Shown here piece by piece: positions 7,801-49,808 of a stretch of 64,000 nucleotides of DNA. A model generated the notes under the pieces. The model worked only from the letters and a program-made list of their open reading frames with translations. It made no database searches and was not told the DNA's origin. The position numbers and the translations under genes were made by a program. The stretch's first letter is position 1. Every line of letters starts with the position of its first letter. Origin of the DNA: Antedon mediterranea (lineage: Eukaryota > Echinodermata > Crinoidea > Comatulida > Antedonidae); the NCBI RefSeq assembly GCF_964355755.1, contig NC_092673.1, forward strand, positions 32,745,648-32,809,647, read 5' to 3'.

Positions 7801-10800
7801 ATGGAAGATACATTTTACATACACCAAGTGGTTGAACGTCTAGGACTACAAAAATATTATCCTAGAAAACTAACACGTGAAGAAGTATTTATAGTTTCTA
7901 AAAATGATATTTCACCAGACGAACTCAATGATGATCCAAGCAAAATACCTTGGTACATGCTGCAAAATCTTATAATGTGTAACTATGAAGGAAGATCTTT
8001 TGAGTTAGAAGAAATTGAGCCTTTTGAAGGAAAGGAAATTGCACTCTCTTCTGCTACACAAAAAAGTGGAAAAGAATCAAATCACCGTAAAGTAAGTCCA
8101 ATAGACGCACTAGTAGCTATCTTCTTCTGTTGTGACAACTTTTTAAGACAAATTTTGATTGAAAAATTGTCAACATGTCAGTTAGCTATTCCATTGCTGA
8201 TGCGCGTTACCGACGTACAAAATAAACAATGGGAATTGATTGTGTGGGGAATGAGCACAATCACAAAGAAATGGCAAACGGGTTCCGGTTCATATTGTGA
8301 ACGACCAATGGTGGTAGAAAAGTTACCGATAGTGTCTGCTTTGCGAATAGGAAGACCTAAAATATCAAAATCTAAAATCATCAACTGTGTCATGAATGAG
8401 CAGAAACATGATATTTTCTTTAATTCTGGGTGCAAAGGTGGACATTTAGAACGGAAATTATCAGATGGCTTAATAGAAATATCATGGTACCTTCCAACAC
8501 AGAAATGCATGAATGCTTTTTCAGATGCATTGACTTTTATAAATTTGAGAGGGAACGCATCAGGTTTACATCATCAGACACAATTTTTATCTGAGACATC
8601 ACTGGTCACTATTGCATTCGTGGCATCTGCTGATTATAAAGAGAGTGACAGCAGATTACTTGAATCATTGTACAGACAAAATGGTCATGTAATTTTTGTC
8701 TTAGATGGAACTCCTGGAAAATATTTGAAAACAACCTTTCTTAGGATGGAAAAAAACATACAAAATGTGAATAAACAAGTAAACAGTTTTGTTTCATCAA
8801 TGAAGAAGGAGCTGCAAATAAGCAGATACATTTGGGAATTGCTTGGAATTCATTTTGAAGGAAGAAATCGGAATGCTGTTTGTGATAGGAGTATTGAGAT
8901 GTGCATTGAAGTAGCACAGAAAATGAATTATCATGTTGATGAAATGATACAGGATTGTTTACAGGCTAAACAGGGTTCTGAGGAATTGATCGAGCGTGTT
9001 AGATTAAAAGGAAAACAAAATGAGCTACCTTTGCAGATGGTAACACGAAGCATTGCAGAAATGAAGAGAGAACAGCATCAGCTACTAAAAAATATGCAAA
9101 CTGTAGAATACGTTGATAGACTAAAGAAAGAGATAGACCTACGTAGTAAACAGTTACACATACAGCAAGGTAGATCCGAGCGTTGCGTATATGAGATGTT
9201 TAGAGCCTCATTCACAAACTCTCTTTCAAATAGAAAATATTTCTTTGGTTTTATTAAGATAATGGCTGATCGATATAGCATCGACAGGTTACAACCAATA
9301 CGTGACAAATGGAATGAGTTGTGTGACAAAAGAAAACACGAACCAGAAACATCAAAAGCACAATTAGAATCAATGACAGATAGACTTGAACTTGAACGAC
9401 AACTTTCTAGTGAATCACTTGGATTAGAACACTTCAATCGAGAAGTTGGACAGAATTACGAGATGTCATTAAGTTTAAAATTACGTGACCCCATCGTAGC
9501 AGAAGTTGCTGCTGAAATGTTACTACATGGTTATCCCATTGAGCTGATGGATGGTGATGCAGCCCACGCGCCTCTCACTTGGATTGAAGCCGTTTTTAAT
9601 TCTCTTAAGGACCAGATTGGCAATAAGAAACTATTTGTGTTATCTGTACTAGGCATTCAAAGTAGCGGAAAATCAACCATGTTAAATTCAATGTTTGGCT
9701 TACAATTTGCCGTTAGCGCCTGCAGATGTACTAAGGGTATATTCGCCCAGTTAATCTCACTAGATGAAGATTTAAGAGAAGACACACAATGCCACTACAT
9801 TCTGGTGGTTGACACTGAGGGCTTGTGGTCTCCTGAGTTTGCAAGCATCCATCAGTCCTACTATCGTCATAATGAACTAGCCACGTTTGTCATTGGTTTA
9901 AGTGATCTTACCCTATTAAACATCAAGGGAGAAGATGCAACAGACATGCAAGACACACTTCAAATTGCTGTCCATGCTTTTATGAAAATGGAAAATGTTA
10001 ATATCAATCCAAACTGCTTATTTGTACACCAAAACGTCACTGATGTCTCAGCATCCGATCTGAATGCGACACAACAAAGTATGCGAGAAACTTTAAATAA
10101 AATGACAAAATTTGTAGCCGAAGCCGAAAATTGCAGTGGAAAATATAAATCATTTTCTGATGTCATTAAATTTCATGAAGACAAACACATAATGTACACT
10201 TCAAGTCTTTGGCAAGGAGATCCACCGATGGCGCCCCCAAATCCTGGATACAGCAAATACAGTCTTCGAGTAAAGAAACAAGTCTTGGAAATCATGAATT
10301 ATTCCAAACCTAAAAGTATAGGTGAGTTCACAACATTGCTGTCCGATCTTTGGAGGGCAATATGTCAAAATTCTCTTGATATTCAAGCTTTTTATGCTTT
10401 AAATAAAGAATATGAGAAGCATGCCCGCACATTCAGAAGAAATACACTGACATATAGCGCCAGACTTCAAACAAAATTTAAGAAACTTAGAGCTGAAAAG
10501 ATGAAAAAAGAGGGTGGCAAAATCCTTAACGAGTACATACTGAAGTTACAAAATGACATTGGAGCTTTTCAATTAAGCATGGCGTCATATTTTGAAGAAG
10601 AAGAAAAAGCATGTCAATGGAAATGCAAAATGGATTCACAACGTGACGGTCTTTGTAAAGAAATTGAAAATGAACTGAGGGATGTGTTTAAATCAATGAG
10701 AAATAAAGCAATTAGAAGAGTTGAAATTGATCCCGAAAATGAAATGAAATTCATTTTGGAACAAGAAAAAACATCTTATAAGGAGTCGAGCACATGTAAA

Positions 10801-10825
10801 GAAGAACAAGTTCAAACAGAAACAG
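7801..10825 (+). CDS. VLIG-like GTPase copy 1: large exon, C-terminally truncated, spliced into array A
   Basis: VLIG/GVIN-type dynamin-superfamily GTPase. Residues 20-31 hold YYPRKLTREEVF. Next come the family N-terminal region (WYMLQNLIMCNYEG; ALRIGRPKISKSKIINCV; DGLIEISWYLP, a degenerate G-like fold by inference) and a charged helical stretch. The true G domain has G1 GIQSSGKST at 618-626, G3 DTEG at 671-674 and HQNVTD downstream. The frame can run to a TAG at 10828-10830, but CAG|GTTAGT at 10825/10826 is a good donor in phase 1, matching the acceptor of the first mini-exon 127 nt on. The ATG at 7801 is the first after an in-frame TAA at 7762; a phase-2 acceptor at 7790 would allow an upstream exon. 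Compared with copies 2 and 3 it lacks roughly 560 C-terminal residues, has an 8-residue deletion after AIC (about 10370) and reads DTEGLW instead of DTEGLR. Confidence 0.82.
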
Positions 10826-10952: not shown

Positions 10953-11042
10953 AAAAAATTAGCCAGGCAAAAGCGTCTGACGAGTTTCCAACCACATGTA
11001 AAGAGAAACAAGAATCACCCGAACAGGTCATACCAAAAGAAG
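10953..11042 (+). CDS. Array A mini-exon 1
   Basis: 90 nt, phase 1 to 1, encoding EKISQAKASDEF then PTTCKEKQESPEQVIPKE. Acceptor AAACAG, donor GAAG|GTGAGT. Only 127 nt separates it from the donor of VLIG copy 1, the main argument that copy 1 is spliced into the array. Confidence 0.75.
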
Positions 11043-11218
11043 GTGAGTTACTGCGGCTATATGAAATATGGTTCTAAAATGACACATAAGGCTTGAGCTC
11101 ATATTATAAGAAAAATCAGATTCAACAATTATACATGAATGTGGACCCCGTAGTGACATAGGGTTGACGTAAATACAAACATATAAAATTGTTTTATTCT
11201 TTCATTAATTTAAAGCAG

Positions 11219-11311
11219 TAAAATTAGGTCCAGCAATTAAAACAGCTTCCGAGGAGTTAGCAGGTACATGTAAAGAACAAAAATCACCCGAACAGGTCAT
11301 AACAGAAGAAG
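11219..11311 (+). CDS. Array A mini-exon 2
   Basis: 93 nt, phase 1 to 1, encoding VKLGPAIKTASEEL then AGTCKEQKSPEQVITEE. Acceptor AAAGCAG, donor GAAG|GTGAGT. Confidence 0.75.
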
Positions 11312-11480
11312 GTGAGTTTACTGCGGCTCTGAAATCTCCTGAGTCAATATAGTGTATATTATGAGCAAAATCAGATTAAATAATTGTATATGAATATTCA
11401 GTGGACACGGTAGTTTATACATGGGGTTGGCGTAAATACAAACACCTAAATATTTTTTTCTAATTCTTTCATTAAAGCAG

Positions 11481-11576
11481 TAAAATTAGCCCCAGCCAAA
11501 AAGCCAGCTTCTGATGAGCTACCAGGCACTGGTGAAGATGAACAACAATCACCCGAACAGGTCATACCTGAAGAAG
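11481..11576 (+). CDS. Array A mini-exon 3
   Basis: 96 nt, phase 1 to 1, encoding VKLAPAKKPASDEL then PGTGEDEQQSPEQVIPEE. Donor is the slightly weaker GAAG|GTTAGT. Confidence 0.72.
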
Positions 11577-11781
11577 GTTAGTTACTGTTGCTATGTGAAA
11601 TATGGTTCTCAAACTATAGGTCTACATGTGGCTATTGAGTATATTATTATACAGTATATTATTATGAGCAAACGCATATTAAAACATTCTATATTTAACA
11701 TTTAGTGGACCCCGTAGCAACAATGGTTTACGTAAATATAAACATCTAAAATTGTTTTATTCTTTCATTAATTAAAATCAG

Positions 11782-11877
11782 CAAATAAAGGCCCAGCTAT
11801 TGAAACAGCTTCTGAGGAGTTATCAACCACAGCTAAAGATGAACAAGAATCACCAGAACAGGTTGTAGCTGAAAAGG
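11782..11877 (+). CDS. Array A mini-exon 4
   Basis: 96 nt, phase 1 to 1, encoding ANKGPAIETASEEL then STTAKDEQESPEQVVAEK. Donor AAGG|GTAAGT. The acceptor context AAAATCAG is poorer in pyrimidines than in neighbouring units. Confidence 0.68.
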
Positions 11878-12051
11878 GTAAGTTATCGGCTATGTGAAAT
11901 ATGATTCGCAAACGATACATGTTGCTATTGAGAAAATATATTATGAGCAAATAAAAATTCAATAATTCTATATGAATATTCAGTGGACCTCTTTGTTACA
12001 TACTGATACATCTACACCTTTTCTTTATTCTTTCATTATTAATAAAAGAAG

Positions 12052-12144
12052 TAAAATTAGGCCCAGTAATTGAAGCAGCTTCTGGTGAGTTACCAGGCAC
12101 ATTTAAAGAGGAAAAAGAATCATCCGAACATGTCATACCAGAAG
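12052..12144 (+). CDS. Array A mini-exon 5
   Basis: 93 nt, phase 1 to 1, encoding VKLGPVIEAASGEL then PGTFKEEKESSEHVIPE. Donor GAAG|GTGAGT. The following intron is longer (525 nt) than the rest of the array and holds unrelated AT-rich sequence, including an AATAAA near 12499 that could end a short transcript. Confidence 0.7.
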
Positions 12145-12669
12145 GTGAGTGAAATATAGTTCTCAAACGATAGGTCTGAACTTTGTACATTTATTTGCCA
12201 AAGAGTTTCTAGAATACATGCTTTATTATCTTACAATCATTCTCCTTATAATACTAGGCATAGACACACCTTTGTTGAAACCCAATACCGAACGCCATTT
12301 TGTGCAGTCCTCTTCCATATTTGATTAGACCTAAATGAATAATTTGTAATTTTGCATTTTAATGCAGTTTTACTGTTTCTTATATATGTATTTTGATGTT
12401 CAATTTGTTTTTATGACCTATATAGCTGTAATTTTAACCAATAATTGTATACCTATTTTGTAAATTGAAACGCAATTCAGAATTGGTTTTTTTTATGAAT
12501 AAATATCAATGAATACGGTACTACATATGACTATTGAACCAATATGTATATTATTATGAGCAAATGTATATTAAATAAATCTATATTTCATATTCATAGA
12601 CCCCGTGATATAGGGCTGACGTAAATATGAACATCTAAAAAATGTTATTTATTTTTTTTATTAAAGCAG

Positions 12670-12765
12670 TAAAATTAGGCCCAGTAATTAAAACAGCTTC
12701 TGATGAGTTACCAGGCACATGTAAAGATGAAAAAGAATCACCCGAACAGGTCGTACCAGATGAAG
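12670..12765 (+). CDS. Array A mini-exon 6
   Basis: 96 nt, phase 1 to 1, encoding VKLGPVIKTASDEL then PGTCKDEKESPEQVVPDE. Acceptor AAAGCAG, donor GAAG|GTGAGT. Confidence 0.75.
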
Positions 12766-12957
12766 GTGAGTTACTGTGGCTATGTGAAATATGGTTCTCA
12801 AACGATAGGTCTACATGTGGCTATTAAGATAATACAGTATATTATTATGAGCAAACGCATATTAAACAATTCTATATTTAACATTTAGTGGACCCCGTAG
12901 CGACAATGGGTTGACATAATGAACATCTAAATAATCTTAATTCTTTCATTAAAGAAG

Positions 12958-13044
12958 TAAAATTAAGCCCAGTAATTAAAACAGCTTCTGAGGAGTTACC
13001 AGGCTCAGGTGAAGATGAACAAAAGTCACCCACAGCAGAAAAAG
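12958..13044 (+). CDS. Array A mini-exon 7
   Basis: 87 nt, the shortest of the set, phase 1 to 1, encoding VKLSPVIKTASEEL then PGSGEDEQKSPTAEK. It lacks three codons of the EQVIP segment but keeps the frame. Confidence 0.72.
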
Positions 13045-13208
13045 GTGAGTTACTACGGCTAATACGGTTCTCAAACGACACAATAAGGTTGATATTGAGA
13101 CAATTATGAGCAAATTAATATTAAATTATTCTATATGAATGTTCAGTTGAACCCTTTGTTATATACGGATTGATGAACATCTGCACATTTTCTTTATTCT
13201 TGTATTAT

Positions 13209-13275
13209 CCAAGCTTTAAATAAAGGCCCAGTAATTTAAACAGCTTCTGATGAGTTATCAAGTTATGTTATGTTA
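13209..13275 (+). pseudogene. Decayed array A exon
   Basis: AAATAAAGGCCCAGTAATTT and CAGCTTCTGATGAGTTATCA match the first half of the unit. The frame has a TAA stop, there is no proper acceptor, and the second half and donor are gone. It would be skipped in splicing. Confidence 0.7.
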
Positions 13276-13424
13276 TCAGCAATTTGAAATATGGTTCTTA
13301 AACGACATGTCTACACGTGGCTATTGAACCAATATAGTATATTATTATTAGCAAATGAATATTCAATAATTCTATATTTAATATTTAGTGGACAACCTTT
13401 TTTTTAATTCTTGTATTAAAGCAG

Positions 13425-13520
13425 TAAAATTATGCCCAGCCAATGAGCCAGCTTCTGATGAGTTACCAGGCACAGGTAAAGATGAAAAAGAATCACCGGA
13501 ACATGTCATACCAGAAGAAG
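13425..13520 (+). CDS. Array A mini-exon 8 (last)
   Basis: 96 nt, phase 1 to 1, encoding VKLCPANEPASDEL then PGTGKDEKESPEHVIPEE. The donor GAAG|GTGAGT opens a ~6.4-kb intron; the next compatible phase-1 acceptor found on this strand is at 19970, the start of the VLIG copy 2 exon. Confidence 0.73.
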
Positions 13521-13583
13521 GTGAGTAAATGTTATAGATTTACTTGATTTGCTGATAATTTTGAGTACATTGAAATAATAGTC

Positions 13584-19735: not shown

Positions 19736-19969
19736 TAAACTTGCAACGACCAGTATCAAAATGTTTACCAACAGGTGAATTACGAAAATACATTGCGGAT
19801 TTTGAAAATTGAAACGATTATCAGAAATATTGGTGGTTACTTTTTTATCATTAGAAACTGAAAGTACGTTCATGGTGGAAGTCTAAACTACTATATCTTA
19901 GAAGTGTTATGTAAAGCAAGTTAAAATGTGAAAATGTATTTATATTTGTAAATATGTAATTCTCTTTAG

Positions 19970-22900
19970 ATAAGACGGATGCTAAATTTGAAATGTACAA
20001 GCAGGTAGTTGTACAGCTACAACTACAGAAATATTATCCAAGGAAATTGACTCGTGAAAAAGTGTTTGAAGTGTCAGAAAATGTGGTTTCACCAGAAGAC
20101 CTCAATACTGATTCAAGCAAAATACCCTGGTACATGCTGCAAAATCTTATAATGTGTAACTACGAAGGGAGATCATTTGATTTAGAAGAAAGTCAATCTT
20201 TTCATGAAAATGGTTTATCATTTTCTTGTGTTCTACAAGAATCCGATAATAGTAATGAAAACTTCCAAGTAAGTCCTTCTGATGCACTAGTAGCTATTTT
20301 ATTGTGTTGTGACAATTTTTTAAGACAAATTATAATTGAAAAATTGTCAATATGTCAGTTAGCTATTCCGTTACTAATCCCAGTTACGGACGTACATAAC
20401 AAAGAATGGGAAATGATTGTGTGGGGAATGAGCACGATCACAAAGAAATGGCAAACGGGCTCCGGTTCATCTTGTGAACGATCAATGGCGATAGAAAAGT
20501 TACCAATTGTGTCTGCATTGCGATTAGGACGACCTAAGATATCAAAATCTAAAATCGTCAACTGTGTCATTAATGAGCAGAAACATGATATTTTCTTTAA
20601 TTCTGGGTGCAAAGGTGGTAATGTAGAACGGCAATTATCAGATGGCTTATTAGAAATGACATGGTACCTTCCCACACAGAAACGCACAGAGGCTTTTTCA
20701 GATGCACTAACTTTCATAAATTTGAGAGGAAATGCGTTATATTTTAGACGGCAGACGTCATTTCTATCCGAGATATCACTGGTCACCATTGCATTTGTTT
20801 CCTGTTCTGATTTTAAAGAGAATGACGCTGCGTTACTTGAATCATTGTACAATCAAAAAGGTCACGTAATAGTTATCTTAGATAATGTTCCAGGAGAATA
20901 TTTAAAAGAAAGGGTTGAGGAATTTGAGAAAAATTGGGATACACCTACAAAGAAACAAGTAAAATATGTTTTGTCACAAAAAAAGAACGAGCTAAAAATA
21001 AGCCGAGAAATTTGGAGATTTATTGAATCAAATTTTAAAGAAAGCAATCGAAATGTTATACGCAATTGGAGTATTGAGATGTGCATTGCTTTAGCAAAGA
21101 GAATGAATTACCACGTTGACGAAACCGAACGAGATTGTTTGGAAGCAAAACAGAGTGCAAAAACTTTGATTGACCGCGTAGTTTCGGAGGGGAAACAAAA
21201 CGAGCTGCCCTTGCAGGTGGTAACAGTGAACATTGGAGAGACGAAAAAAGAGCAACACCGACTATTAAGAAAAGGAAATATGCAAATAGAAGAATACGTT
21301 GACAAACAAAAGAAAGAGATAGCAGACTTGCGCCGTAAACAGTTAGACCTACACAATCAGAGACCTGAGCATTGCACATACAACGTGTTTAAATCCTCCT
21401 TCAAAGAGTCGCTTATAAAAAGAAAATATTTCTTAGGGTTTGTTAAGATAATGACCGATCGACATAGTATCGACACACTTCAGCCAATACGTAGAGAGTA
21501 CATCAAACAATGGAATGAGTTATGTGACGAAAGAAAAAACGAATCAGGAAAATCAGAATCATTTACGCATTCAACGAAAGAAATACTTGATGAACTTGAA
21601 CAAAAACTTTCTCAGAACTCTCTGGGATTAGAACATTTTAATAGAGAAATTGGACAGAGTTACGAAATGTCATCAGACTTAACATCACTAGCCTTCGAAT
21701 CAGATAATAACGACATAGCAACAGTTACTGCTGAGATGTTAGTACATGGTTATCCCATTGAGTTAATGAATGGTGATGCAACATACGTGCCTCTCACTTG
21801 GATTGAAGCCGTGTTCAGTTCCCTGAAACACCAAATTGGCAATAAAAAAATGTTTGTGTTATCTGTACTAGGCATTCAAAGTAGTGGAAAATCAACAATG
21901 CTGAATGCCATGTTTGGTTTACAGTTTTCCGTTAGTGCAGGCAGATGCACTAAAGGTATATTCGCCCAGCTGGTACCACTAGATACAAGTTTGAAAGAAG
22001 ACACGCAATGTGACTACATTCTGGTGGTTGATACCGAAGGTTTGCGGTCTCCTGAATTTGCTAGTATTCAACAGGACAACAATCGCGATAATGAATTAGC
22101 CACGCTTGTGATTGGTTTGGGTGATCTTACCATAATAAACATTATGGGAGAAAACCCAACAGATATGCAAGACATACTTCAAATCGCTGTTCATGCTTTT
22201 ATAAAGATGGAAAAAGTTAATATTAAACCGAGCTGTGTATTTGTACACCAAAATGTCACTGATGCTACAGCATCTGACTTAAATACGACACAAAAAAGAA
22301 GTATGCGAACAATGTTGGATAAAATCACAACAATTGCAGCTGAAGCAGAGAACTTCAGTGAAAAATACAAGTCGTTTTCTGACGTCATTAATTTTCAAGA
22401 AAACAAACACATAATGTACATTTCCAGCCTTTGGCAAGGAGATCCACCAATGGCGCCTCCTAATCCTGGTTATAGCAAAGGTATTCTTCAAGTAAAGAAA
22501 CAAGTCTTGACATTCATCAGGAATTCTGAACCTAAAAGTATCGATGAATTCAAAATATTTCTGTCCAGTCTTTGGAATGCAATATTATATCAACATTTTG
22601 TATTCAGTTTCAAAAATTCCCTAGAGATCAAAGCCTTTAATGATTTAAATGCAGAATATGTGAAACATGCCCGTACATTTAGAAGAAATACACTGACATA
22701 CAGCCACCAAATTCAAGTTGCATGTAAGAAACTAAAAGCGGATAACATTAGAGAAGAAGGGGAGAAAATTCATCGCCGTTACTTACTAAAATTAAAAACA
22801 GACATCGGTGAATTTCAATCAAGTATGAAGTCTTATTTTGAAAAAGAAAAGAAAGCATGCCAATGGAAGTCTAAAATGGAAACACAACTAGACGATCTTT

Positions 22901-24696
22901 GTAAGGAAATTAAAAAGGGTATAACGGATGCATTTACAGCAATTACAAATAACGTAATTGCAAGGACTAACATTGATGAAAACATTAAAATGCAGGAAGA
23001 AGAAATTGTTAGAAAAGCAAAGAAACTTGCCGACGATTATCAAAATCAAAAACTTTCTGACGAAAATCTTCAAATTGAGTTTGCTAGTAAGTGGAAGACG
23101 TGGGTTTCTGCAATACCAAGACTTATTGATTCTGAAGATGTAAACACGTCTTTTCAAAGAATCACTGGAGAATATTACACAGAAAACCATAGATCAGACG
23201 TTACTCAGGAATTTCGGTTTGGCTTTACCAAAACAGAGGTAGTGGAAGATGATTTGGATTTTGGAGTAATTCAGTCTATAAAATCTATGTTCAAACCCTT
23301 AAACAAGTCAGCACTTGTAAATGAGGCTAATTGCACTAAACAAAATATTCTAGAAAATCTTAAAAAACAAATCTCAGATCATGCTCAGAATGGTGAAAAC
23401 TATTCTCATCAATTTGGATTTGACATTTTTAACTCACTGTCAAATGAACTTAAAGAGATGAAAGTGGATACGAAGTTTGGACTTAAGAAGAAAAAAGTAA
23501 TGCCACTAGTCCTGTATAATTTCAATGTTGCCTTAATACCAAGCCTTAGAGAAATGCAGGAAAAGTACAAACGCGAAAATGATCCTAGATTATACATGGA
23601 GTCTCAGAAGGAAAAATTGTGGCAAATGTTTAAAGAAAAGTGTGAAGGTCTTCACATAACTGTTAGAGGGGCGTCAGCTATATCTTGGGAGCTTACATGT
23701 GCTATTAAAACATCACTTCCAGAGAAATGCAAACTTGGAATAATCGACCATCTAAGACATTCTCCAAATAAAGGGTTTTCTAGTAAGATGTCTCTTCATG
23801 CATGGATGCTGATAGAAATGGCAGAGAAAGGCGATTTTAAATCATTTGTACCGTATTTGTCTAATCCAGTCCAGTGCATCAAGACGTTCACATCTGAAGT
23901 AATAAAGAAAATGTGTTTACAAGAGAATGAAATCGGCACTTCTTTATTAGAAGAAATACACCATCGTAAAGTCCATGACACCATCATTGTATTAAGACAG
24001 GTTATTTCTACTTTAAGTGCGAAAACTACTGTCGTCACAGTAAAGACTTTGTGGTCATCCTTAGTCGAACACATTGACGATAAAGAGTTGTGTCTCAAAA
24101 CAGATATTTTAATTTTTGATGAGGACAGGGGTCTGATTTTGGATGAACTTTGTGATAGCTTGTTATTAAAACTAGAGTCTATCGAAGAAAGCAGAATTAA
24201 AGCTTATGATGATAGCATTTTCAGTCAAATAAGCACATCCTGTTTTGAATTCTTCACAGCTGATCTACTAGCTTGTCAGGAGATGTGTCCATTTTGTAAG
24301 GCACTATGTGATCTTAATGGCAAACATGATCACCATCGTACAAATTGTCACAGACCACAGGGGATTGCCGGATTTAAACATGAGGAATCTAAACGACTCG
24401 TCTCGGAATTATGCACAACTTCAGTAATGTCTAATAATAGCTACTTTTTTAATCAACATACGAACGGTAAATGGATAAAATACAGAAACTATAGGAGTGT
24501 GAATCCCTACTACGATTCATGGAAAATAGAACCAGAAGCAGGCGAATCAGAGATGTTTTGGAAATGGTTTATGGCAACATACAATACTCAACTTGCTGAA
24601 CACTACATTTGTAACGAGGCCGATATACCAGATGGATGGAAAAGTGTTACAAAGGAAGAAGCAACGGGAGATATGAAAAGGTTGTACGACATTTAA
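19970..24696 (+). CDS. VLIG-like very large GTPase copy 2, full-length exon
   Basis: The longest intact copy, 1567 residues from the ATG at 19993. The exon itself opens at a phase-1 acceptor (CTCTTTAG|AT) at 19970, adding DKTDAKFE before that Met, so it is probably an internal exon. Order of parts: YYPRKLTREKVF; WYMLQNLIMCNYEG; ALRLGRPKISKSKIVNCV and DGLLEMTWYLP; helical region; G1 GIQSSGKST at 627-635; RCTKGIFAQL; G3 DTEG at 680-683; HQNVTD; PPMAPPNPGYSKG; FVFSFKNSLEIKAF; a long helical region; the Cys/His cluster CQEMCPFCKALCDLNG, then HDHHRTNCHRPQG (1428 onward); and FWKWFMATYNTQLAEHY near the end. This matches GVIN/VLIG proteins, interferon-inducible giant GTPases in vertebrates. It could be the second module of a gene beginning at 7801. 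Two AATAAA signals (24901, 24954) follow the stop. Confidence 0.88.
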
Positions 24697-32817: not shown

Positions 32818-33349
32818 ATGGATGATACTGAACTTAAACAAAAGTTTTGGGAATTTAAAAATAATTTCAGTAAACACTATGATGGTCACAAATACCGTTG
32901 GTTAAAATTCTGCCTATTTAGTATAATAGATGTATCTGATCTTACCGATGAACAGTTTACAGCGATCGTATTATTAAACAGACTGGAGGATTTCGGTGAT
33001 ATCACCTTTACCAACATTAGTCTTCTGCTAGAAATAGCAAAACTATCACGTTTAAAGGGGGCAAAAGATCTTGTTATTCAGTATATGAGAGTTAACAAAA
33101 TTCAACAAACTTCAGATAAAGAAAAGTTGTCACCTTTCCGAAAACGACTTTTTAATACCATCCGTCAAGTTGGACAAGACGACATACAGAAGGTTATTGG
33201 GCACTATCAAATGCAAATCAGTTCAACGAATATGTGGGACGTGGTGTTTCGACTGGAACGAGACACAGAATTAGCAGATGAAGAAGATAAAATAAGGACG
33301 TTTGCTGGTCTCCTTAGTACATTTGCAAGGAATATACTACTTGATATTT
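32818..33349 (+). CDS. DED-like first exon of VLIG gene 3
   Basis: 177 codons from the ATG at 32818 (in-frame TAA at 32806-32808 just upstream, so this is the true start) to a phase-1 donor T|GTATGT at 33349/33350. Without splicing the frame would stop at 33384. Residues about 8-85 look like a death-effector-domain fold: FWEFKNNFSKHY, WLKFCLFSIIDVSDLT, LLNRLEDFGDITFT, then ISLLLEIAKLSRLKGAKDLV and IQYM, close to the helix 5-6 pattern of FADD and caspase-8 DEDs. A second helical, charged region follows (about 100-177). DEDs mediate homotypic adaptor assembly in apoptosis and innate immunity. An acceptor (TTTACAG) at 32802 suggests an upstream untranslated exon. The phase fits the next exon at 33552. 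The DED call rests on pattern recognition alone. Confidence 0.72.
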
Positions 33350-33551: not shown

Positions 33552-33659
33552 GTACTCAGATACCAATACAACTAAAAAGACGACATCCTGACTCTGAAGA
33601 TGAGCCATCTGCACAAGTAGCTTCTTGTGAAAGTCGACATTTGAAAGTTATTGACGATG
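33552..33659 (+). CDS. VLIG gene 3 exon 2 (linker)
   Basis: 108 nt, phase 1 to 1, acceptor TTGTTGCAG, donor GATG|GTAAAC. It encodes TQIPIQLKRRHPDSEDEP then SAQVASCESRHLKVIDD, a charged low-complexity linker with a basic LKRRHP patch. Its phase matches both the DED exon before it and the mini-exons after it, so it joins smoothly to array B. Confidence 0.7.
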
Positions 33660-34039
33660 GTAAACTGATAATATCAATAGTTCTTGATAGAAAAAAATAA
33701 ATTGAAATTTGGCTTAAAGGAAAACGTTGTAAAAGTGTCAATATGATACTAAGGTCTGTATCACCACCCGAAAGGGGACAAATTGCCATCCAACTTCTCT
33801 AGACCAGAATTTTCCGTAAATTACGAATATGGAAGGTAATCGATCAGGATATGAAGCGTTTTCGATAAATAAGGGGTCAAAGTTCAAAATTTACCAATAT
33901 AAAAACATGCTATATCTCTGGAAATTCTGGACGTTGTGAGATAATTTTGGTGTCAAATGTACTCAACTAAAATTAGCACCCTGGAAATTACTTCCGAAAG
34001 AGAAACTTTTCACAAAATGAGACCAATTGTTTCTATATA

Positions 34040-34490
34040 TAAATTTACGTAAGGCCAAAATACGGTAAATCGCGCGTTACTCGATGGTATATAAAGTTAG
34101 TTAGAATCTCGGTACTGATTTTAACGACCTGATGTAACCCTGTTTACTAATTAAATTGAGTTAGATAATTAGTTATTGACGATTAAAACGAATTTTGGGT
34201 TCAACGATCTGCCCTAAATAGGGGTGTTTTCCGATCGTGGTATACACTGTATTATGGATGTCCTCATGAAAAATACCTGCACACAATAATACGAGGATGC
34301 TTCGCATTTTCCTATCTCCTCCTACGATAATTGTTTTTAATAGCTGAAAACCGGTTGAACAGTTCGTGTACAGTATCATATTGTTGAAGACAGACCGATT
34401 TTCTTTATAAAATACTATTTTGATAGATTTAATATACGTTTATACAAATGTATTGATTTGCGATGAAAGGAACATTCCAATCTCTCAGAC
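34040..34490 (+). repeat. Dispersed repeat, inverted partner of 62990-63490
   Basis: Shared blocks, read in opposite directions, include AATTTACGTAAGG, ACTCGATGGTATATAAAGTT, CCTGTTTACTAATTAAATT, TAGGGGTGTTTTCCGATCGT and CTCCTACGATAATTGTTTTT. It is non-coding. Confidence 0.75.
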
Positions 34491-34726
34491 TCCCAGTTTG
34501 TAGGTACATTTGTGAGCCCTTGGTTTAAAGAAGTAGGTAAATTTATGGGCCCTTGGAGAATAAAACTTATATATAGTATTGCAATACTTTGACAATATTG
34601 TAAATACTGAACGTAGGCTATTAACCATTTTTGGTCGCCATTTGAATCGAAATTGTCTTACTGTGAATGCGGTTACTGTTAGATATATACACAAAATATA
34701 CAAAGAACATGTATTACTGCGGGTAG

Positions 34727-36211
34727 ATTACTGACAGTTGCTTCTCAACGTTTGTATTAATTAATAATTATAAAAAATATAAATGTCGTAGAGGTGTATC
34801 GTTACATGTACTTTACTATTTCAATCGACTATAACAGGGACAGTTTTAAAAAAGTATTATAAATCGTAAATGTTTTACTGGGTATATTATTTTTAGGCCT
34901 ATAAAACATTTAAAACAATATTTCGTTACTGAGTGGATAAAGAATATATTTAAAAATTGTTCTTCCCATCCTCTTCCTCATCCCTCAACTCTAATGTTAT
35001 ATACAAAACACAAATTGGGTTTGTTTAAATGAGTTCAAATAAAAAAATTAGACTCATTTTTTATACAAAGGCCTAATTCCCAGGGTGCTAATTTTACATA
35101 AATCATTGTGTCTATTTATTCGTTTCTGTAAACGACAATATAGTCCTGTGGTACGTACATTTTTTACGCTGAAATTACACTGTATTCGAGAGAACCATCT
35201 AGTGAGCAAAATTTAAACAAACTTAATTTGTGTTCTGTATGTAACATAAGTTTGAGCGATGGGGAAGAGGTTGGGTGCAAAGAGGAACAAATTTTAGTCG
35301 CGACTCAATATTTCACTATGTCGGTCGGTCTGTCGGTCTGTCGGTCTGTCTGTCGGTCCGGTATCACTATGCGTTTTATCGCTTTCTGACCTTATCTTGA
35401 TATCAGTTTAATCTAGCTAAGTCAATTTTTCACAGTATATTCCTTATGGCCAGAAATCGATGTGGTTATGTTTTCACGGTGCGCAATAAAAAATTACGCG
35501 GTCTACGCACGATTTAACGAAACAACGTTTGTAATCATATCTTCACAACCATGAATCACAATTAAATAAAATTTGGTACTCATAAATGTCAGGGCATATA
35601 TCATCATGGCAATACAATTACGTGCGTAGCGCGCATTCAAAATTTATTTTCGATAAAATAAGAGTACGTTTCAGGCAATTTTAGGCGTTTACAAAATTGC
35701 CATGAGTGCGCAGATTTTTGCGCGCGCACTGCGCGTTAAATGTTGTCTCGCACTCTTTTTGCCCGATTTCTGTTTTCTTGACTTACTTTTCAACTCGAAA
35801 TTACCTTATACGAGCACGTCAAAAGTGACAGGCTACGCACGTGTAAATTAAAAAAATATCAATGTTTTTAAACATTTCAACATTTTTAAACATGTTCAGT
35901 AATTTCGGTCAGTTGGTAGGTTGGTCGGTCGGTCGGTAAACACTAATGAGCGACTGCAGCCATCTATATGGCCTTGTTAAATATAGTCTTTATCCATTTA
36001 GTAACGAAATATTAATTGTTTTCATGTTTTACAAATAATATACCACTAAACACAGTAAAACATTGCGATGTAATACTTTGTTGAAACTGTCACCGTCATA
36101 GTCGATTGAAATAGTACAGTACATGTAACGATACATCACTACGACGTTTATATTTTTTTTTGTAATTACAGTATTAATCAATACAAACGTTGAGAAGCAA
36201 CTGTCAGTAAT
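34727..36211. mobile_element. Long inverted-repeat element in VLIG gene 3 intron
   Basis: Left arm about 34727-34954 and right arm about 35980-36211 are reverse complements with some divergence (outer tip ATTACTGACAGTTGCTTCTC; inner blocks such as GGATAAAGA and AATATTTCGTTACT). The 1-kb centre holds a TCGGTCTG microsatellite (about 35318-35360) and a GGTCGGTC run (about 35920-35937). No transposase frame. A partial relative lies at 58680-59230. Confidence 0.7.
35318..35360. repeat. TCGGTCTG microsatellite
   Basis: Tandem TCGGTCTG/TCGGTCGG octamers inside the long inverted-repeat element. Confidence 0.8.
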
Positions 36212-36757
36212 AAAGTTTATTTGTATATGTGTTTATATAATGCAAAACAATTTGTGAAAAACACACCTATTCGCTTTAAACGACAATAAATAATTATCTA
36301 GCTCAAGGGTCTGTACTTTTCCATCTTTCTTGTTCTTAATTTTCGCATACTCTTTAATCTCTTGGAATTGCCACATCAATTATTTAACACTCTTTCTACA
36401 TATTATATACTATATAATGTCCGTTCTTCGTGCTTTTATGTCTCTATCACGTTGGACATTGGATCACATGATCTTTATTTCTTCATTTTCCATTACAACT
36501 TCTAGATGATGTTCGTATCATTTCACATTAACTTCGAAGTTTAACTTCAGTTACCAGACACTGTCGTAACACCTTTTAAACTGAGTTACTGCAGTTATGT
36601 GAAATCGGGTCACAAACATGTGGCTACTGAGGAAATTATCATTATGGGTCAAGATTCAAGAAAATTCTCTATCTAATCAATATTAGGTGAATCCCTTAGC
36701 TACACAGATTTAACATAAATACAAACATATAATTATTGTTATTCTTTTACTAAACAG

Positions 36758-36838
36758 ATAACTTAGACCATAGAAGTAAATCAGCTTCTAACGAGGTGAA
36801 TCAAGAGGAACAAAAATCGCCGGTGTTAACAGAAGAAG
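36758..36838 (+). CDS. Array B mini-exon 1
   Basis: 81 nt, phase 1 to 1; LDHRSK and EEQKSPV variant. Preceded by the intron part of a lost unit. Confidence 0.78.
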
Positions 36839-37013
36839 GTGAGTTGCTGCAGTTATGTGAAATAGGGTCACAAACATGTAGCTACTTAGGAAATTAACAT
36901 TATGAGTCAAGATTCAAGAAAATTCTCTATCTAATCAATATTAGGTGAATCCCTTAGCTACACAGATTTAACATAAATACAAACATAATTATTGTTATTC
37001 TTTTACTAAACAG

Positions 37014-37094
37014 ATAACTTAGACCATAGAAGTAAATCAGCTTCTAACGAGGTGAATCAAGAGGAACAAAAATCGCCGGTGTTAACAGAAGAAG
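37014..37094 (+). CDS. Array B mini-exon 2
   Basis: 81 nt, phase 1 to 1; LDHRSK and EEQKSPV, same as unit 1. Confidence 0.78.
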
Positions 37095-37271
37095 GTGAGT
37101 TGCTGCAGTTATGTGAAATAGGGTCACAAACATGTAGCTACTGAGGAAATTAACATTATGAGTCAAGATTCAAGAAAATTCTCTATCTAATCAATATTAG
37201 GTGAATCCCTTAGCTACACAGATTTAACATAAATACAAACATATAATTATTGTTATTCTTTTACTAAACAG

Positions 37272-37352
37272 ATAACTTAGACCATAGAAGTAAATCAGCT
37301 TCTAACGAGGTGAATCAAGAGGAAAAAAAATCGCCGGTGTTAACAGAAGAAG
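37272..37352 (+). CDS. Array B mini-exon 3
   Basis: 81 nt, phase 1 to 1; LDHRSK and EEKKSPV variant (a CAA to AAA change makes an A-run). Confidence 0.78.
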
Positions 37353-37531
37353 GTGAGTTGCTGCAGTTATGTGAAATAGGGTCACAAACATGTGGCTACT
37401 GAGAGGAAATTATAATTATGGGTCAAGATTCAAGAAAATTCTCTATCTAATCAATATTAGGTGAATCCCTTAGCTACACAGATTTAACATAAATACAAAC
37501 ATATAATTATTGTTATTCTTTTACTAAACAG

Positions 37532-37612
37532 ATAACTTAGACCATAGAAGTAAATCAGCTTCTAACGAGGTGAATCAAGAGGAAAAAAAATCGCCGGTGT
37601 TAACAGAAGAAG
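37532..37612 (+). CDS. Array B mini-exon 4
   Basis: 81 nt, phase 1 to 1; LDHRSK and EEKKSPV, same as unit 3. Confidence 0.78.
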
Positions 37613-37789
37613 GTGAGTTGCTGCAGTTATGTGAAATAGGGTCACAAACATGTGGCTACTGAGGAAATTATAATTATGGGTCAAGATTCAAGAAAATTCT
37701 CTATCTAATCAATTTTAGGTGAATCCCTTAGCTACACAGATTTAACATAAATACAAAAATATAATTGTTGTTATTCTTTTACTAAACAG

Positions 37790-37870
37790 ATAACTTAGAC
37801 CATAGAAGTAAATCAGCTTCTAACGAGGTGAATCAAGAGGAAACAAAATCGCCGGTGTTAACAGAAGAAG
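37790..37870 (+). CDS. Array B mini-exon 5
   Basis: 81 nt, phase 1 to 1; LDHRSK and EETKSPV variant. Confidence 0.78.
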
Positions 37871-38045
37871 GTGAGTTGCTGCAGTTATGTGAAATAGGGT
37901 CACAAACATGTGGCTACTGAGGAAATTATAATTATGGGTCAAGATTCAAGAAAATTCTCTATCTAATCAATATTAGGTGAATCCCTTAGCTACACAGATT
38001 TAACATAAATACAAACATAATTATTGTTATTCTTTTACTAAACAG

Positions 38046-38126
38046 ATAACTTAGACCAAGGAAGTAAATCAGCTTCTAACGAGGTGAATCAAGAGGAACA
38101 AAAATCGCCGGTGTTAACAGAAGAAG
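38046..38126 (+). CDS. Array B mini-exon 6
   Basis: 81 nt, phase 1 to 1; LDQGSK and EEQKSPV variant. Confidence 0.78.
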
Positions 38127-38303
38127 GTGAGTTGCTGCAGTTATGTGAAATAGGGTCACAAACATGTAGCTACTTAGGAAATTAACATTATGAGTCAAGA
38201 TTCAAGAAAATTCTCTATCTAATCAATATTAGGTGAATCCCTTAGCTACACAGATTTAACATAAATACAAACATATAATTATTGTTATTCTTTTACTAAA
38301 CAG

Positions 38304-38384
38304 ATAACTTAGACCATAGAAGTAAATCAGCTTCTAACGAGGTGAATCAAGAGGAAACAAAATCGCCGGTGTTAACAGAAGAAG
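38304..38384 (+). CDS. Array B mini-exon 7
   Basis: 81 nt, phase 1 to 1; LDHRSK and EETKSPV, same as unit 5. Confidence 0.78.
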
Positions 38385-38561
38385 GTGAGTTGCTGCAGTT
38401 ATGTGAAATAGGGTCACAAACATGTGGCTACTGAGGAAATTATAATTATGGGTCAAGATTCAAGAAAATTCTCTATCTAATCAATATTAGGTGAATCCCT
38501 TAGCTACACAGATTTAACATAAATACAAACATATAATTATTGTTATTCTTTTACTAAACAG

Positions 38562-38642
38562 ATAACTTAGACCAAGGAAGTAAATCAGCTTCTAACGAGG
38601 TGAATCAAGAGGAACAAAAATCGCCGGTGTTAACAGAAGAAG
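38562..38642 (+). CDS. Array B mini-exon 8
   Basis: 81 nt, phase 1 to 1; LDQGSK and EEQKSPV, same as unit 6. Confidence 0.78.
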
Positions 38643-38819
38643 GTGAGTTGCTGCAGTTATGTGAAATAGGGTCACAAACATGTAGCTACTTAGGAAATTA
38701 ACATTATGAGTCAAGATTCAAGAAAATTCTCTATCTAATCAATATTAGGTGAATCCCTTAGCTACACAGATTTAACATAAATACAAACATATAATTATTG
38801 TTATTCTTTTACTAAACAG

Positions 38820-38900
38820 ATAACTTAGACCAAGGAAGTAAATCAGCTTCTAACGAGGTGAATCAAGAGGAACAAAAATCGCCGGTGTTAACAGAAGAAG
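38820..38900 (+). CDS. Array B mini-exon 9
   Basis: 81 nt, phase 1 to 1; LDQGSK and EEQKSPV, same as units 6 and 8. Confidence 0.78.
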
Positions 38901-39075
38901 GTGAGTTGCTGCAGTTATGTGAAATAGGGTCACAAACATGTAGCTACTTAGGAAATTAACATTATGAGTCAAGATTCAAGAAAATTCTCTATCTAATCAA
39001 TATTAGGTGAATCCTTTAGCGACACAGATTTAACATAAATACAAACATAATTATTGTTATTCTTTTACTAAACAG

Positions 39076-39156
39076 ATAACTTAGACCATAGAAGTAAATC
39101 AGCTTCTAACGAGGTGAATCAAGAGGAACAAAAATTGAAGGTGTTAACAGAAGAAG
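39076..39156 (+). CDS. Array B mini-exon 10
   Basis: 81 nt, phase 1 to 1; LDHRSK, with KSP changed to KLK. As the edge unit it is the most diverged. Confidence 0.75.
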
Positions 39157-39328
39157 GTGAGTTGCTGCAGTTATGTTGAATAGGGTCACAAACATGTAGC
39201 TACTGAGGAAATTAACATTATGAGTCAAGATTCAAGAAAATTCTCTATCTAATCAATATTAGGTGAATCCCTTAGCTACACATGTTTAACATAAATACAA
39301 ACATATACTCATTTTATTGTTTTACTAA

Positions 39329-39394
39329 ACAAAAAATTTAGACAAAGCAACTAAAAAGCTTCTGATTATATAAACAAAGACGAACACAAACTAC
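39329..39394 (+). pseudogene. Decayed array B exon
   Basis: CTAAACAAAAAATTTAGAC and AGCTTCTGATTATATAAAC match the unit loosely. The acceptor AG is lost, a TAA interrupts the frame, and the donor is gone. Confidence 0.6.
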
Positions 39395-39510
39395 TGAGGA
39401 AATTTTCATTATGAGTTAAGATTCTAATAAATTCTCTATCAATATTAAGTTAATCTCTTAGCTATACAAGTTTTACATAATACGAACATATAGTTAGGTT
39501 TTTTTTGTAC

Positions 39511-39592
39511 TAAAACAAAACAACTAAAACAGCTTCTAAGAGTTTTCAACCACATGTAGAGAGAATCAAGAACTTCCCGAACAGGATAACAT
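39511..39592 (+). pseudogene. Relic exon of array A type inside array B
   Basis: AAAACAGCTTCTAAGAGTTT, then TCAACCACATGTAGAGAGAA, TCAAGAACTTCCCGAACAGG. This follows mini-exon 1 of array A (TTTCCAACCACATGTAAAGA and CACCCGAACAGG) much better than the array B unit. It has a TAG stop and no clear donor. Confidence 0.65.
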
Positions 39593-41610: not shown

Positions 41611-41680
41611 GTTTTGAACAACTGAATTCAAAAACTGAAAGTACACCAACACCGCGGAAGACCGAATTATCGACTGTAAA
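41611..41680 (+). CDS. VLIG gene 3 linker exon before the GTPase exon
   Basis: 70 nt, acceptor TTTTTTAAAG, donor TAAA|GTAAGT. It enters in phase 1, matching array B exons, and leaves in phase 2, matching the giant exon at 41781. It encodes GFEQLNSKTESTPTPRKTEL then STVK. The phase change explains why this exon is needed between the array and the GTPase exon. Confidence 0.68.
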
Positions 41681-41780: not shown

Positions 41781-44700
41781 AACTTTAGATAAAAAGGAAG
41801 ACAACATTGGCATACACCAGCAGATAGTTGAACACCTAGGACTAAATAAATATTATCCCAGAAAACTAACTCGTGAAGATGTATTTGTAGTCTCCAAAAA
41901 TGTGATTACACCTGAGGAACTAAATGATGATCCAAGTAAAATACCATGGTACATGTTGCAAAATCTTATAATGTGCAACTACGAAGGAAGATGTTTTGAT
42001 TTAGAAGAAAATGAATCATTTTCACTTTTTTCTCTTCTACAAGAAAAATCAAATTACAGTAAAAAAAACAGTAAAGTAAATCCAATTGACGCACTAGTGG
42101 CTGTTTTCATGTGTTGCGACAATTTTTTAAGACAAATTTTGATTGAAAAATTGTCGATGTGTCAGTTAGCTATTCCATTACTTATGCCAGTTACAGACGT
42201 ACCTAACAAAAAATGGGAACTGATAGTGTGGGGAATGAGCACAATCACAAAGAAATGGAAAACGAGATCAGGTATGTCTTGTGAACGATCAATGGTAGTA
42301 GAACGTTTACCAATTGTGTCTGCTTTGCGATTAGGAAGACCTAAGATATCCAAATCTAAAGTTATCAACTGTGTCATTAATGAGCAGAAACATGATACTT
42401 TTTTTAACTATGAATGCAAAGGTGGAAATTTCGAGCGAAAATTATCAAATGGTTTATTAGAAATGGCGTGGTACCTTCCTACGCAAAAGGGTCCTTTCTC
42501 GGAGGCACTATCTTTCATAAATTTGCGAGGAAATGCATCTGATTTCCAAATTCAGACACAATTTTTGTCTGAGATATCACTGGTCACTATTGCATTTGTT
42601 TCCTGTGCTGATTTTAATGTTAATAACGCCACGTTGTTTAAGTCACTGTACAGACAAATGGGTCACATAATTTTTATCTTAGATGGTATTCCTGGAGAAG
42701 GTTTAGGAAAGGTCTTGCGTGAAATTCAAGAAAATGTTAAAGATATGAACAAACAGGTACGATATATTAAGTCATTAAACAAAAATGAACTTAAAATAAG
42801 CGCAGAAATTTGGAAACTGCTTGTATCTAATTTTGAAGGAAGTAACCGTAAAATTGTTGGCCTACATGATAGGAGTGTCGAGGCATGCATTAAGGTAGTA
42901 GACAAACTAAATTTCCACGTTGACGAATTTGATTGTTCACATGAAGCAAAAAACAAAGTTGGCATGTTACTTAAGATTGTCAAAAAAGAGGGGAAACAAA
43001 AGGAACTACCCTTGCAAATGGTAACAGTAGAAATTGGAGAAAAAAAAAAGAGCAGCATCGGCTACTAGGAAAAGGAAGTATGCAAAATGAGGTGTATGTT
43101 GAAAAGGTAAAGAAAGAAATATACGACTTACGCTGTTGGCAATCAAGTCTACACAGGGAACGCAGCGAACGCAGTGAAAGCACGTATATGTTATTTAAAG
43201 AGTCATTCAAGTACAAGACTATTGAAAGAAAATACTTCTTTGGATTTGTTAAGATAATGGCCGATAGATATAGTATTCAAAAGCTACAGCCAATACGTGA
43301 AGAGTACATAAAGAAATGGAATGAATTGTGTGACCACAAAAAAGACAAACCAGAAACATCTAATCCACCATTGTACACAATGAAAGATAAACTTGATGAA
43401 CTTGAACAGAAACTATCTCGTGAATCTGTAGGATTAGAACATTTCACTAGAGAAATTGGACAGGATTACGAAATTTTTTCAGATTTGAAACTGCCAACAA
43501 ACGAATTTGACAGTGATCACTTACCAGAAGTTACTGCTGAGATGTTGCTACATGGATACCCCATTGAGCTGATGGATGGTGATGCAGTTCATGTGCCTAT
43601 TGCTTGGATTGAAGCCGTGTTCAACTCTCTTAAAGACACCATTGGCAAGAAAAAACTGTTTGTGTTATCTGTACTAGGCATTCAAAGTAGCGGAAAATCA
43701 ACCATGTTAAACGCCATGTTTGGTTTACAATTTTCCGTTAGCGCTGGCAGATGTACCAAGGGTATATTTGCTCAGCTGGTATCATTAGATAACAGTTTAA
43801 GAGAAGAAACACAATGTGACTACATTCTGGTGGTTAATACAAAGGGGTTGCGCTCTCCTGAATTTGCCAGTATTCAACAAGACACCAGTCGTGACAATGA
43901 ACTAGCCACACTTGTGATTGGTTTGGGTGATCTCACCATAATAAATATTATGGGAGAAAACCCAACATACATGCAAGACACACTTCAAATTGCTGTCCAT
44001 GCTTTTATGAAAATGGAAAATGTTAATATTAAACCGAGTTGCTTATTTGTACACCAAAACGTCACTGATGTTACAGCAACTGATAAAACTACGGAACAAA
44101 AAAGGAGTATGCGAGAAATGTTGGATAAAATTACAAAAATTGCTGCGGCCGAAGAGAATTGCAGTAAAAAATCATTTTCTGATGTCATCAACTTTCAAGA
44201 AAACAAACATATTATGTACATTTCCAGTCTTTGGCAAGGAGATCCACCGATGGCTCCACCTAATCCTGGTTACAGCAAATGCATTCTTCAAGTAAAGAAG
44301 CAAGTCTTGGAAATCATGAAGGATTGCAAACCTAAACGTATTGATGAGTTTCCAACATTGCTGCGCGATCTTTGGAAAGCAATATTATGTCAACATTTTG
44401 TAATCAGTTTTAAAAATTCTCTTGAGATTCAAACATTTAATGCTTTGAATGTTGAATATGTGAAGCATGCCCGTACATTGAGAAGAAGTGCACTGGAATA
44501 CAGCTACGGACTTCAAATTGAATGTGAGAAACTCACGGCAGACGAGATGAAAAAAGATGGACAACGAATCCTGGAAAGTTACGTACATAAATTAGAGAAA
44601 GATTTTCACGGATTTAAATCAAGCATGGCACATTATTTTAGAAAAGAACCAAAAGCATGTCAATGGAAATTTAAAATAGACATTCAAGTCAGTGGTCTAT

Positions 44701-46526
44701 GTGAGGAAATAAAAGCTGAACTAAATGACGCATTTACATCTTTTAAGAATAAAATTACTGGAAGAGCTAAATTCGATGTCGATATTAAAAGGTACAAAAC
44801 AGGTATCTATGAAAAAGCTAAGACGCTTGCCGACAAGTACCGAAATCAACAACTACCTGAGGTACAACTTAAAAAAGAATTCGCTACAAACTGGGAAACG
44901 TGGGTTTCAGACATACCAGGTGGTGATGAACACGTAGATGTACACAAGTCTTTTCCAGAGATTGCTGACAAATGTTTCTTAGAAAACGATAAATCGGAAG
45001 TTACAAGTATATTGCAGTCTAAGAACTTTGATACTGGCGTACTTGAAACGGATTTGTCTTTCGATACCAATCGCCCGGTTGAACAAAATAAAGCAATAAA
45101 AGTTGCTAAATCATTATTTAGTAAATTTGTGTTCGGTGGCAGTAAAGCACATGTGAATAACGCTAATAGTATTAAACAAAGCATTGTAGAGAAATTTAAA
45201 ACAAAAATCACAAAGCTTGAACAGAGCGGAAGAAGTTACACTGTACAACAAGGATGCGACCTTCTTAGCGACTTAGCAAATGAAATAGGAAAAATAGAAA
45301 TAGATGAGAAAGTTCACGTTACCGCGAAAGGAAAGATTCGAATAGCCTTGTGTAATTACAAGGTTAAACTCTTACCCATTTTGGCAAAGATGCAGGAACA
45401 CTACAAACGCGAAAATGACCCGAGAATATACATGGAGTGTCAAAAAGAAGGATTGTGGCAAATGTTCAAAGAAGAATGTGAAGATCTGCACATAATTGTT
45501 AAAGTGGCGTCGGCTACATCTCGATGGATTTCAAGTGCTATTAAAACAGCTCTTCCAGAGAAATGCAAACGTGGAGTAATTGACAAACTGAAAACCAACA
45601 AAGGTTTTTCTAGCAAGATGTCTCTCCATGCATGGATGCTGGTTGAAATAGCAGAAAAGGGCGATTTCCAATCATTTGAGAAGTACTTATCTGATCCAAT
45701 AAAATGCATCAAAACGTTCACATCTGAACAAATAGAGAAAATGTGTTTTCAGAAGAATGATAAAATCAGTAGTTCTGTAATACAAGATATATATCATAAT
45801 AAAGTTCAGGACATATTAAATGGATTAAAGGAAGCTATCCGTACATTAAGTGCGAAAGGTTCCATCACAATGAAATTATGGTGGCCAACCTTTCTTAGAC
45901 ACATTGATAAAGAGTTATGCGTCAAAACGGACATTATGTTTTTTGATGAGGACAGAGATCTGGATTTGAAAAGCCTTAGCGATACACTGTTATCGGAATT
46001 AAACAAAGTTGAAGATAAAATAATTAATGCATATGACGACAGAATAGTCAATGAAATAAGCAAATCTTGCTGTGAGTTCTTTACAGCTAATCTACTAGCT
46101 TGTCAGGAGGTGTGTCCATTTTGTAAAGCACTATGCGATCTTAATGGCCCACATGATCACCATCGGACAGATTGTCACAAACCGAAAGGGGTTGCCGGAT
46201 ATAGGTGGAAGAAGTCTGAAAAACTCAATTCAGATATATGCACAACTGCACTATTGTCTGATTATAGTTTTAGGAATCAACATACGAATGATGAATACAT
46301 TAACTACAGAAACTATAGGCCTAGAAGTGTAAATGACTACTACGCATCGTGGAAAATTGAACCACTGGGATGCGAGGCAGAGACGTTCTGGAAATGGTTC
46401 ATGGCAACATACAATACTGAACTTGCTGAACACCACAATGCTAAAGAGGCTGATATCCCAGCCGGATGGAATGATATTACAATGGAAGAAGCGAAGGATG
46501 ATATGAAAAAATGGTACGACATTTAA
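41781..46526 (+). pseudogene. VLIG-like very large GTPase copy 3, giant exon with one frameshift
   Basis: Acceptor AACTTCCAG at 41780; the exon continues the frame of 41611-41680 with TLDKKEDNIGIHQQIVEH then LGLNKYYPRKLTRED. The frame stops at 43068, then resumes from about 43056 in another frame to the TAA at 46524-46526. The break is at an A10 run (43040-43049); copies 1 and 2 have the equivalent E(T/M)KxEQH in one frame, so this is a 2-nt gain or 1-nt loss. In the second part (numbered from 43080), G1 GIQSSGKST is at 200-208. G3 reads NTKG (253-256) instead of DTEG. HQNVTD, FVISFKNSLEI, the cluster CQEVCPFCKALCDLNG with HDHHRTDCHKPKG (from 1008), and FWKWFMATYNTELAEHH are intact. Everything else is open, so the break could be an assembly error, a polymorphism, or recent inactivation. 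Confidence 0.82.
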
Positions 46527-49581: not shown

Positions 49582-49808
49582 AAGCTTGGTTCCCACTAGA
49601 ACGTAACGCAAGGACGTAAACGCAATTTAAGCTTGGTTCCCACTAGCGACGCAACGCAAGGACGTAACGCAACGCAAGTGAATTGACCAATCACAAGCGA
49701 TGGCTTATTGGCTTGTGATTGCTAACTGGTATGACTTCGCTTGTCATTGGTTAAAACGCTTGCGTTGCATTTACGTCCTTGCGTTACGTTCTAGTGGGAA
49801 CCAAGCTT
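49582..49808. mobile_element. Palindromic MITE inside the minisatellite, copy 1
   Basis: 227 bp. Ends AAGCTTGGTTCCCACTAG and GAACGTAACGCAAGGACG are perfectly inverted at the other side. It has a nested second AAGCTTGGTTCCCACTAG near 49629 and an internal CAATCACAAGC/GCTTGTGATTG hairpin. Inserted in a minisatellite unit within GTATATTA. Confidence 0.82.

Follow-up and report, generated by a model that had tools for sequence, protein, structure and literature searches.

The body of the vertebrate very large interferon-inducible GTPases (GVIN/VLIG) is a single long coding exon. We found no report in the open-licence literature of a GVIN protein joined with a DED or with tandem hinge exons. Tandem amplification of coding exons together with their introns is known from the human LPA gene, in which the kringle IV type 2 (KIV-2) unit of 5.6 kb contains two exons (160 and 182 bp) for a folded kringle, and the number of copies is from 1 to more than 40 with known population variation (PMC6314250). 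Here, we analyzed a window of 64,000 nucleotides from the crinoid Antedon mediterranea (contig NC_092673.1, positions 32,745,648 to 32,809,647 of the forward strand), which carries three GVIN/VLIG-type GTPase bodies and a 258-bp tandem repeat of intron plus exon in 10.7 copies (array B, 36582..39343, plus strand). Array B is probably a recent tandem amplification of a hinge exon with its intron, serving as the N-terminal hinge of a GVIN sub-class that has no ATG in the body exon.

TRF detected array B with a period of 258, 96% matches and a score of 5072. Within 36758-39156 there are ten plus-strand exons of exactly 81 bp, each encoding 27 amino acids in phase 1-1: B1 (36758..36838), B2 (37014..37094), B3 (37272..37352), B4 (37532..37612), B5 (37790..37870), B6 (38046..38126), B7 (38304..38384), B8 (38562..38642), B9 (38820..38900) and B10 (39076..39156). 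Their starts are spaced by 256, 258, 260, 258, 256, 258, 258, 258 and 256 bp and their introns are 175-179 bp long, in agreement with the first-pass annotation, which had described ten near-identical units of about 258 bp with a spacing of 256-260 bp. Every unit has AAACAG| on the 5' side and G|GTGAGTTGCTGCAG on the 3' side of the exon, and these splice sites (AG/GTGAGT) are intact in all ten exons. The array is extended leftward by an intron part (36582-36757), and on its right side there are decayed units (39344..39590, plus strand) detected by blastn and nhmmer, including a relic of an array-A-type exon (39515-39585, plus strand, nhmmer 32.6 bits). No other occurrence of array B was found in the 354-Mb genome. 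The window also contains other tandem repeats: a 39-bp minisatellite of about 88 copies over 3.5 kb (48743-52218), which is broken up by a duplicated block of unique sequence (47-bp repeats at 49582 and 50201), and a 20-bp repeat (ATTTTGTGTAGACAAAATTC) in two mutually inverted arrays (59399-59820 and 62429-62732) that are 2.6 kb apart.

The array-B exons share one open frame, D-NLD(HR/QG)SKSASNEVNQEE(Q/K/T)KSPVLTEE. The variants at the two positions are as previously claimed, namely Q>K in B3 and B4, Q>T in B5 and B7, and HR>QG in B6, B8 and B9, and in addition we found SP>LK in B10, the last intact unit. Of the 270 residues in the ten peptides, 70 are acidic, 30 are basic and 15% are hydrophobic. 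Pfam gave no credible family for the hinge, and the Rfam search gave no match. The units differ in 21 columns (14 in the intron and 7 in the exon), and the mean pairwise difference is 0.030 for exons as well as for introns in all units, or 0.024 and 0.022, respectively, in units 1-9. This equal conservation of exon and intron, with only 2-3% difference, bears out the suggestion that the array is young or being homogenised. Units 6 and 8 are the sole pair identical over exon and intron, and units 5 and 7 are different solely in one 2-bp intron indel. The proposal that units 5-6 and 7-8 were copied as a pair has some support: they are the closest pair of dimers, with 2 differences against 6 in the next best pair, but a dimer pair as good arises in 5% of permutations of the unit order (p ~0.05), and neighbouring units are not otherwise more similar (permutation p 0.35). 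Dimer copying is the simplest reading of these identities and is modestly supported.

The array-B exon is a member of a genuine family of coding exons, which forms two further arrays. Array A (10953..13520, plus strand) is an older array with eight intact exons (10953-11042, 11219-11311, 11481-11576, 11782-11877, 12052-12144, 12670-12765, 12958-13044 and 13425-13520) and a decayed unit at about 13209-13262, all on the plus strand. Array C (C4:32662.7-32667.8 kb, minus strand), found by DNA search with array A, lies about 115 kb from array B, and eight exons were read with introns of about 200-1360 bp. The exons of arrays A and C, 16 in all and diverged, are without exception 78-99 bp long, divisible by 3, in phase 1-1 and with intact splice sites, and for this reason we regard the family as coding; the chance that all 16 lengths are divisible by 3, were the lengths free, is about 2e-8. 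The mean exon difference within arrays is 0.205 in A, 0.030 in B and 0.162 in C, while that between arrays is 0.35-0.39. Thus, the exons group by array, and each array must have grown or been homogenised on its own.

There seems to be little constraint on the amino-acid sequence of the hinge, because the pN/pS values of arrays A and C are near 0.9, with wide intervals, and in array B the changes at the seven variable exon sites are all nonsynonymous (0 of 7 synonymous with 22% expected, P ~0.18), a count that by itself is uninformative about selection. Such weak constraint and the acidic composition fit a spacer in which composition outweighs sequence. Arrays A and C have 8-9 and about 9-10 hinge exons, respectively, while array B has ten and the related locus L020 has one, and such differences between paralogues would be what unequal exchange gives. 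The older arrays in two sister genes show that the spacer segment has been repeatedly enlarged by local duplication.

The GVIN family has about 20 bodies in the genome, most of them within C4:32.63-33.04 Mb. The body of gene 3 behind array B (41781..46526, plus strand) matched URGCP_GTPase (PF25683) and URGCP (PF25496) at 405.9 and 241.2 bits, above the Pfam cut-offs, and both domains were likewise above the cut-offs in genes 1 and 2. The bodies in the cluster fall into two classes by their 5' ends. ATG-bearing bodies have an N-terminus like ..TTTAGATAAGATGG.. with the start codon inside the body exon, whereas ATG-less bodies keep the acceptor TTTAG|AT and show other codons, such as ACG or AAG, at the position of the ATG. 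Arrays A, B and C are each located upstream, on the same strand, of an ATG-less body, namely gene 2 (19960..24696, plus strand), gene 3 and L018, respectively. A fourth ATG-less body with a hinge, L020, is preceded by a DED exon, a domain exon and then one hinge exon, all in phase 1. Of the other ATG-less bodies, L012 and L024 had no hinge exon in the upstream stretch searched, and L024 has a DED exon upstream. Thus, a hinge exon precedes four of the six ATG-less bodies and none of the nine ATG-bearing ones (p 0.011), and the counts for a hinge or a DED exon are 5/6 and 0/9 (p 0.002), in upstream stretches of unequal lengths (5.8-19.8 kb); these p-values are optimistic because the paralogues are related. 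Elsewhere in the window, an ORF with a PC4 transcriptional coactivator domain (Pfam PF02229) is found at 677-1234 on the minus strand.

We propose that one coding exon with its intron was amplified recently to give array B, most likely as tandem duplication, by unequal exchange, of a symmetric hinge exon plus intron in an N-terminal extension. The exon would encode a 27-residue spacer, acidic, polar and probably disordered, and in one gene cluster the exon family would supply a sub-class of GVIN/VLIG-type giant GTPases with their N-terminal hinge. The body exon of this sub-class, which has lost its own start codon, would be entered at the phase-1 acceptor TTTAG|AT by splicing from upstream phase-1 exons, which include a DED exon at two loci; the body of gene 3 may be entered instead through a linker exon. 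Since every unit is 81 bp in phase 1-1, gain, loss or skipping of a unit keeps the frame, and unequal exchange can therefore alter the hinge length in 27-residue steps. Points against this proposal are the weak amino-acid constraint, the two ATG-less bodies that showed no hinge exon, the state of the gene 3 body and the repeat-like stretch before array B (see below). A bolder extension, which we regard as rather doubtful, is that the hinges of the cluster GTPases consist of identical in-frame cassette exons whose length varies by allele (0-10+ units of 27 residues) and by splice form, and that this module also recruits DED exons.

The body closest to gene 3 is L020, with 77-84% amino-acid identity and a dS of 0.34-0.40. 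Gene 3 has ten hinge exons differing by about 3%, whereas L020 has one detectable. Compared with that dS, the unit difference indicates that the amplification of array B, or its last homogenisation, is much younger than the gene duplication, though L020 may alternatively have lost hinge units. The start ATG of the gene 3 body has been lost (LDKM>LDKK) and its first Met is beyond the conserved N-terminus; therefore, an upstream coding exon is needed or the gene is dead. The candidate acceptors of the body are CAG|41781 or TTTAG|41789. By phase arithmetic, 41611..41680 (plus strand) is a candidate linker exon, phase 1 in and phase 2 out, which resembles the N-terminus of the L012 body (KTIPSPRNTEVS), and the phase of array B fits the body with or without this exon. 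Judging from the genomic sequence, array B may be spliced into the body at 41781 and gene 3 may still be active. The frame of the body is broken by a frameshift in an A10 run (43040-43049), giving two overlapping ORFs, and this frameshift may be either genuine or an error of the assembly. The first-pass annotation had placed the hinge in an immune-type gene, and the unit is indeed a real exon family upstream of immune-type (GVIN) GTPases, but array B is a putative part of a working spliced gene, the body being frameshifted and having no start codon.

These features of gene 3 would also suit a relic, that is, a minisatellite-like amplification in a dying GVIN gene, the exons of which are untranslated and intact merely from youth. 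We give this possibility somewhat less than even credence. It is favored not only by the frameshift and the lost start codon but also by the broken DED neighbour, the repeat-rich stretch upstream, the decayed units at the right edge of array B and the missing excess of synonymous changes among its units. On the other hand, the frameshift is a lone homopolymer lesion in a body that is open over the rest of its roughly 1,580 codons, and the dN/dS of this body versus paralogues is as low as 0.23-0.45. All ten exons and all 20 splice sites of the array are intact as well, though this is expected anyway at 3% divergence. In the upstream stretch (33760-36582), which is repeat-like, no recognisable coding exon was found. 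Part of it (35300-35937) is 90% identical to DNA near locus L041 (C4:33020418-33021091), and is probably a mobile repeat.

Further upstream, there is a tandem-DED-like exon of a neighbouring gene (32818..33348, plus strand), which is followed by a second exon with an in-frame TAA at its end (33554..33700, plus strand); the rest of the exon-2 domain has been lost in the window and is intact in the paralogue at C4:14660300. The DED-like exon is one member of a very large family. Among 404 candidates in the genome, at least 150 were scored as matches; they lie on C3, C4, C9, C10 and others, many of them in clusters. In paralogues the Pfam DED matches stayed under the cut-off (E 1e-5 and 7e-4), the window copy had no DED match, and phmmer gave E 0.025 against the tandem DED of caspase-8. 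Gene 3 could be conceived as a DED-hinge-GTPase fusion, in which the DED exon would be spliced to array B through a shorter form of exon 2 that ends ahead of the TAA, at a donor GATG|GTAAAC near 33659. The phases are compatible and the ATG-less bodies of L020 and L024 have upstream DED exons, but we consider such a fusion unlikely, as in the paralogue the same GATGGTAAAC simply lies within coding sequence. Moreover, the window DED is 64% identical to the distant DED gene at C4:14.66 Mb and only 41-44% to the DEDs of L020 and L024, despite the 77-84% identity of the gene 3 and L020 bodies, and because of this difference the DED exon was not counted in the array-B gene. The DED exon with exon 2 was also rejected as a proven N-terminus of that gene, in view of the in-frame stop in exon 2 and of the presumed donor being coding sequence in the intact paralogue. 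At two other loci, a domain without Pfam match follows the DED exon (L042:2801-3205 and L040:7070-7312); it has about 32 genome matches, and at each of the two loci it ends with a donor AG|GTAAGAAA.

The GVIN body of gene 1 (7765-10825) is a truncated one, whose reading frame continues into the end of a hinge-type exon (10766..10825, plus strand, nhmmer 29 bits); the phase-1 donor of this exon lies immediately ahead of array A. If read as the normal arrangement, this would make the arrays C-terminal tails of the upstream gene rather than N-terminal hinges, and gene 1 might then continue in frame into array A with a possible end at the TAA at 13526-13528. We hold such tails to be very unlikely, since array B has no GTPase body directly before it, none was found in 12 kb upstream of array C, all three arrays precede ATG-less bodies, and gene 1 looks more like the product of a deletion, by which it became joined to the hinge of gene 2. 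Finally, it is scarcely credible that array B is an assembly artefact, because it occupies 2.8 kb within a 36-Mb contig and its 21 differing columns, with only units 6 and 8 identical, show that the units are not copies of one misassembled unit, even if the homopolymer frameshift hints at base-level errors.

If our favored reading of array B as a recently amplified N-terminal hinge is true, exon-intron units of an immune-type GTPase family themselves behave as a minisatellite does, and 36582-39343 is a concrete candidate site for hinge-length polymorphism and cassette splicing. With three arrays of differing age (B young, A and C older) in one cluster, it would be possible to trace how tandem exons multiply, become homogenised and decay. 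The closest known arrangement to array B is the LPA KIV-2 array, which likewise consists of near-identical whole exon-plus-intron tandem units with in-frame gain and loss and unit subtypes (PMC6314250); array B, too, is a head-to-tail repeat of a whole exon and its intron, the exon being symmetric in phase. In contrast to KIV-2, the unit of array B is 258 bp with one 81-bp exon for a low-complexity spacer, and it is known from one assembly. The array resembles coding minisatellites and low-complexity protein repeats in being a young tandem repeat with a copy number changeable by unequal exchange, but its repeat is an exon plus an intron with its own splice sites, so that units could be skipped singly. 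With the vertebrate GVIN/VLIG family, the cluster shares the URGCP and URGCP_GTPase domains, the long body exon, clustered paralogues and broken members, while one sub-class here differs in having no body ATG and being located behind hinge exons and sometimes a DED exon.
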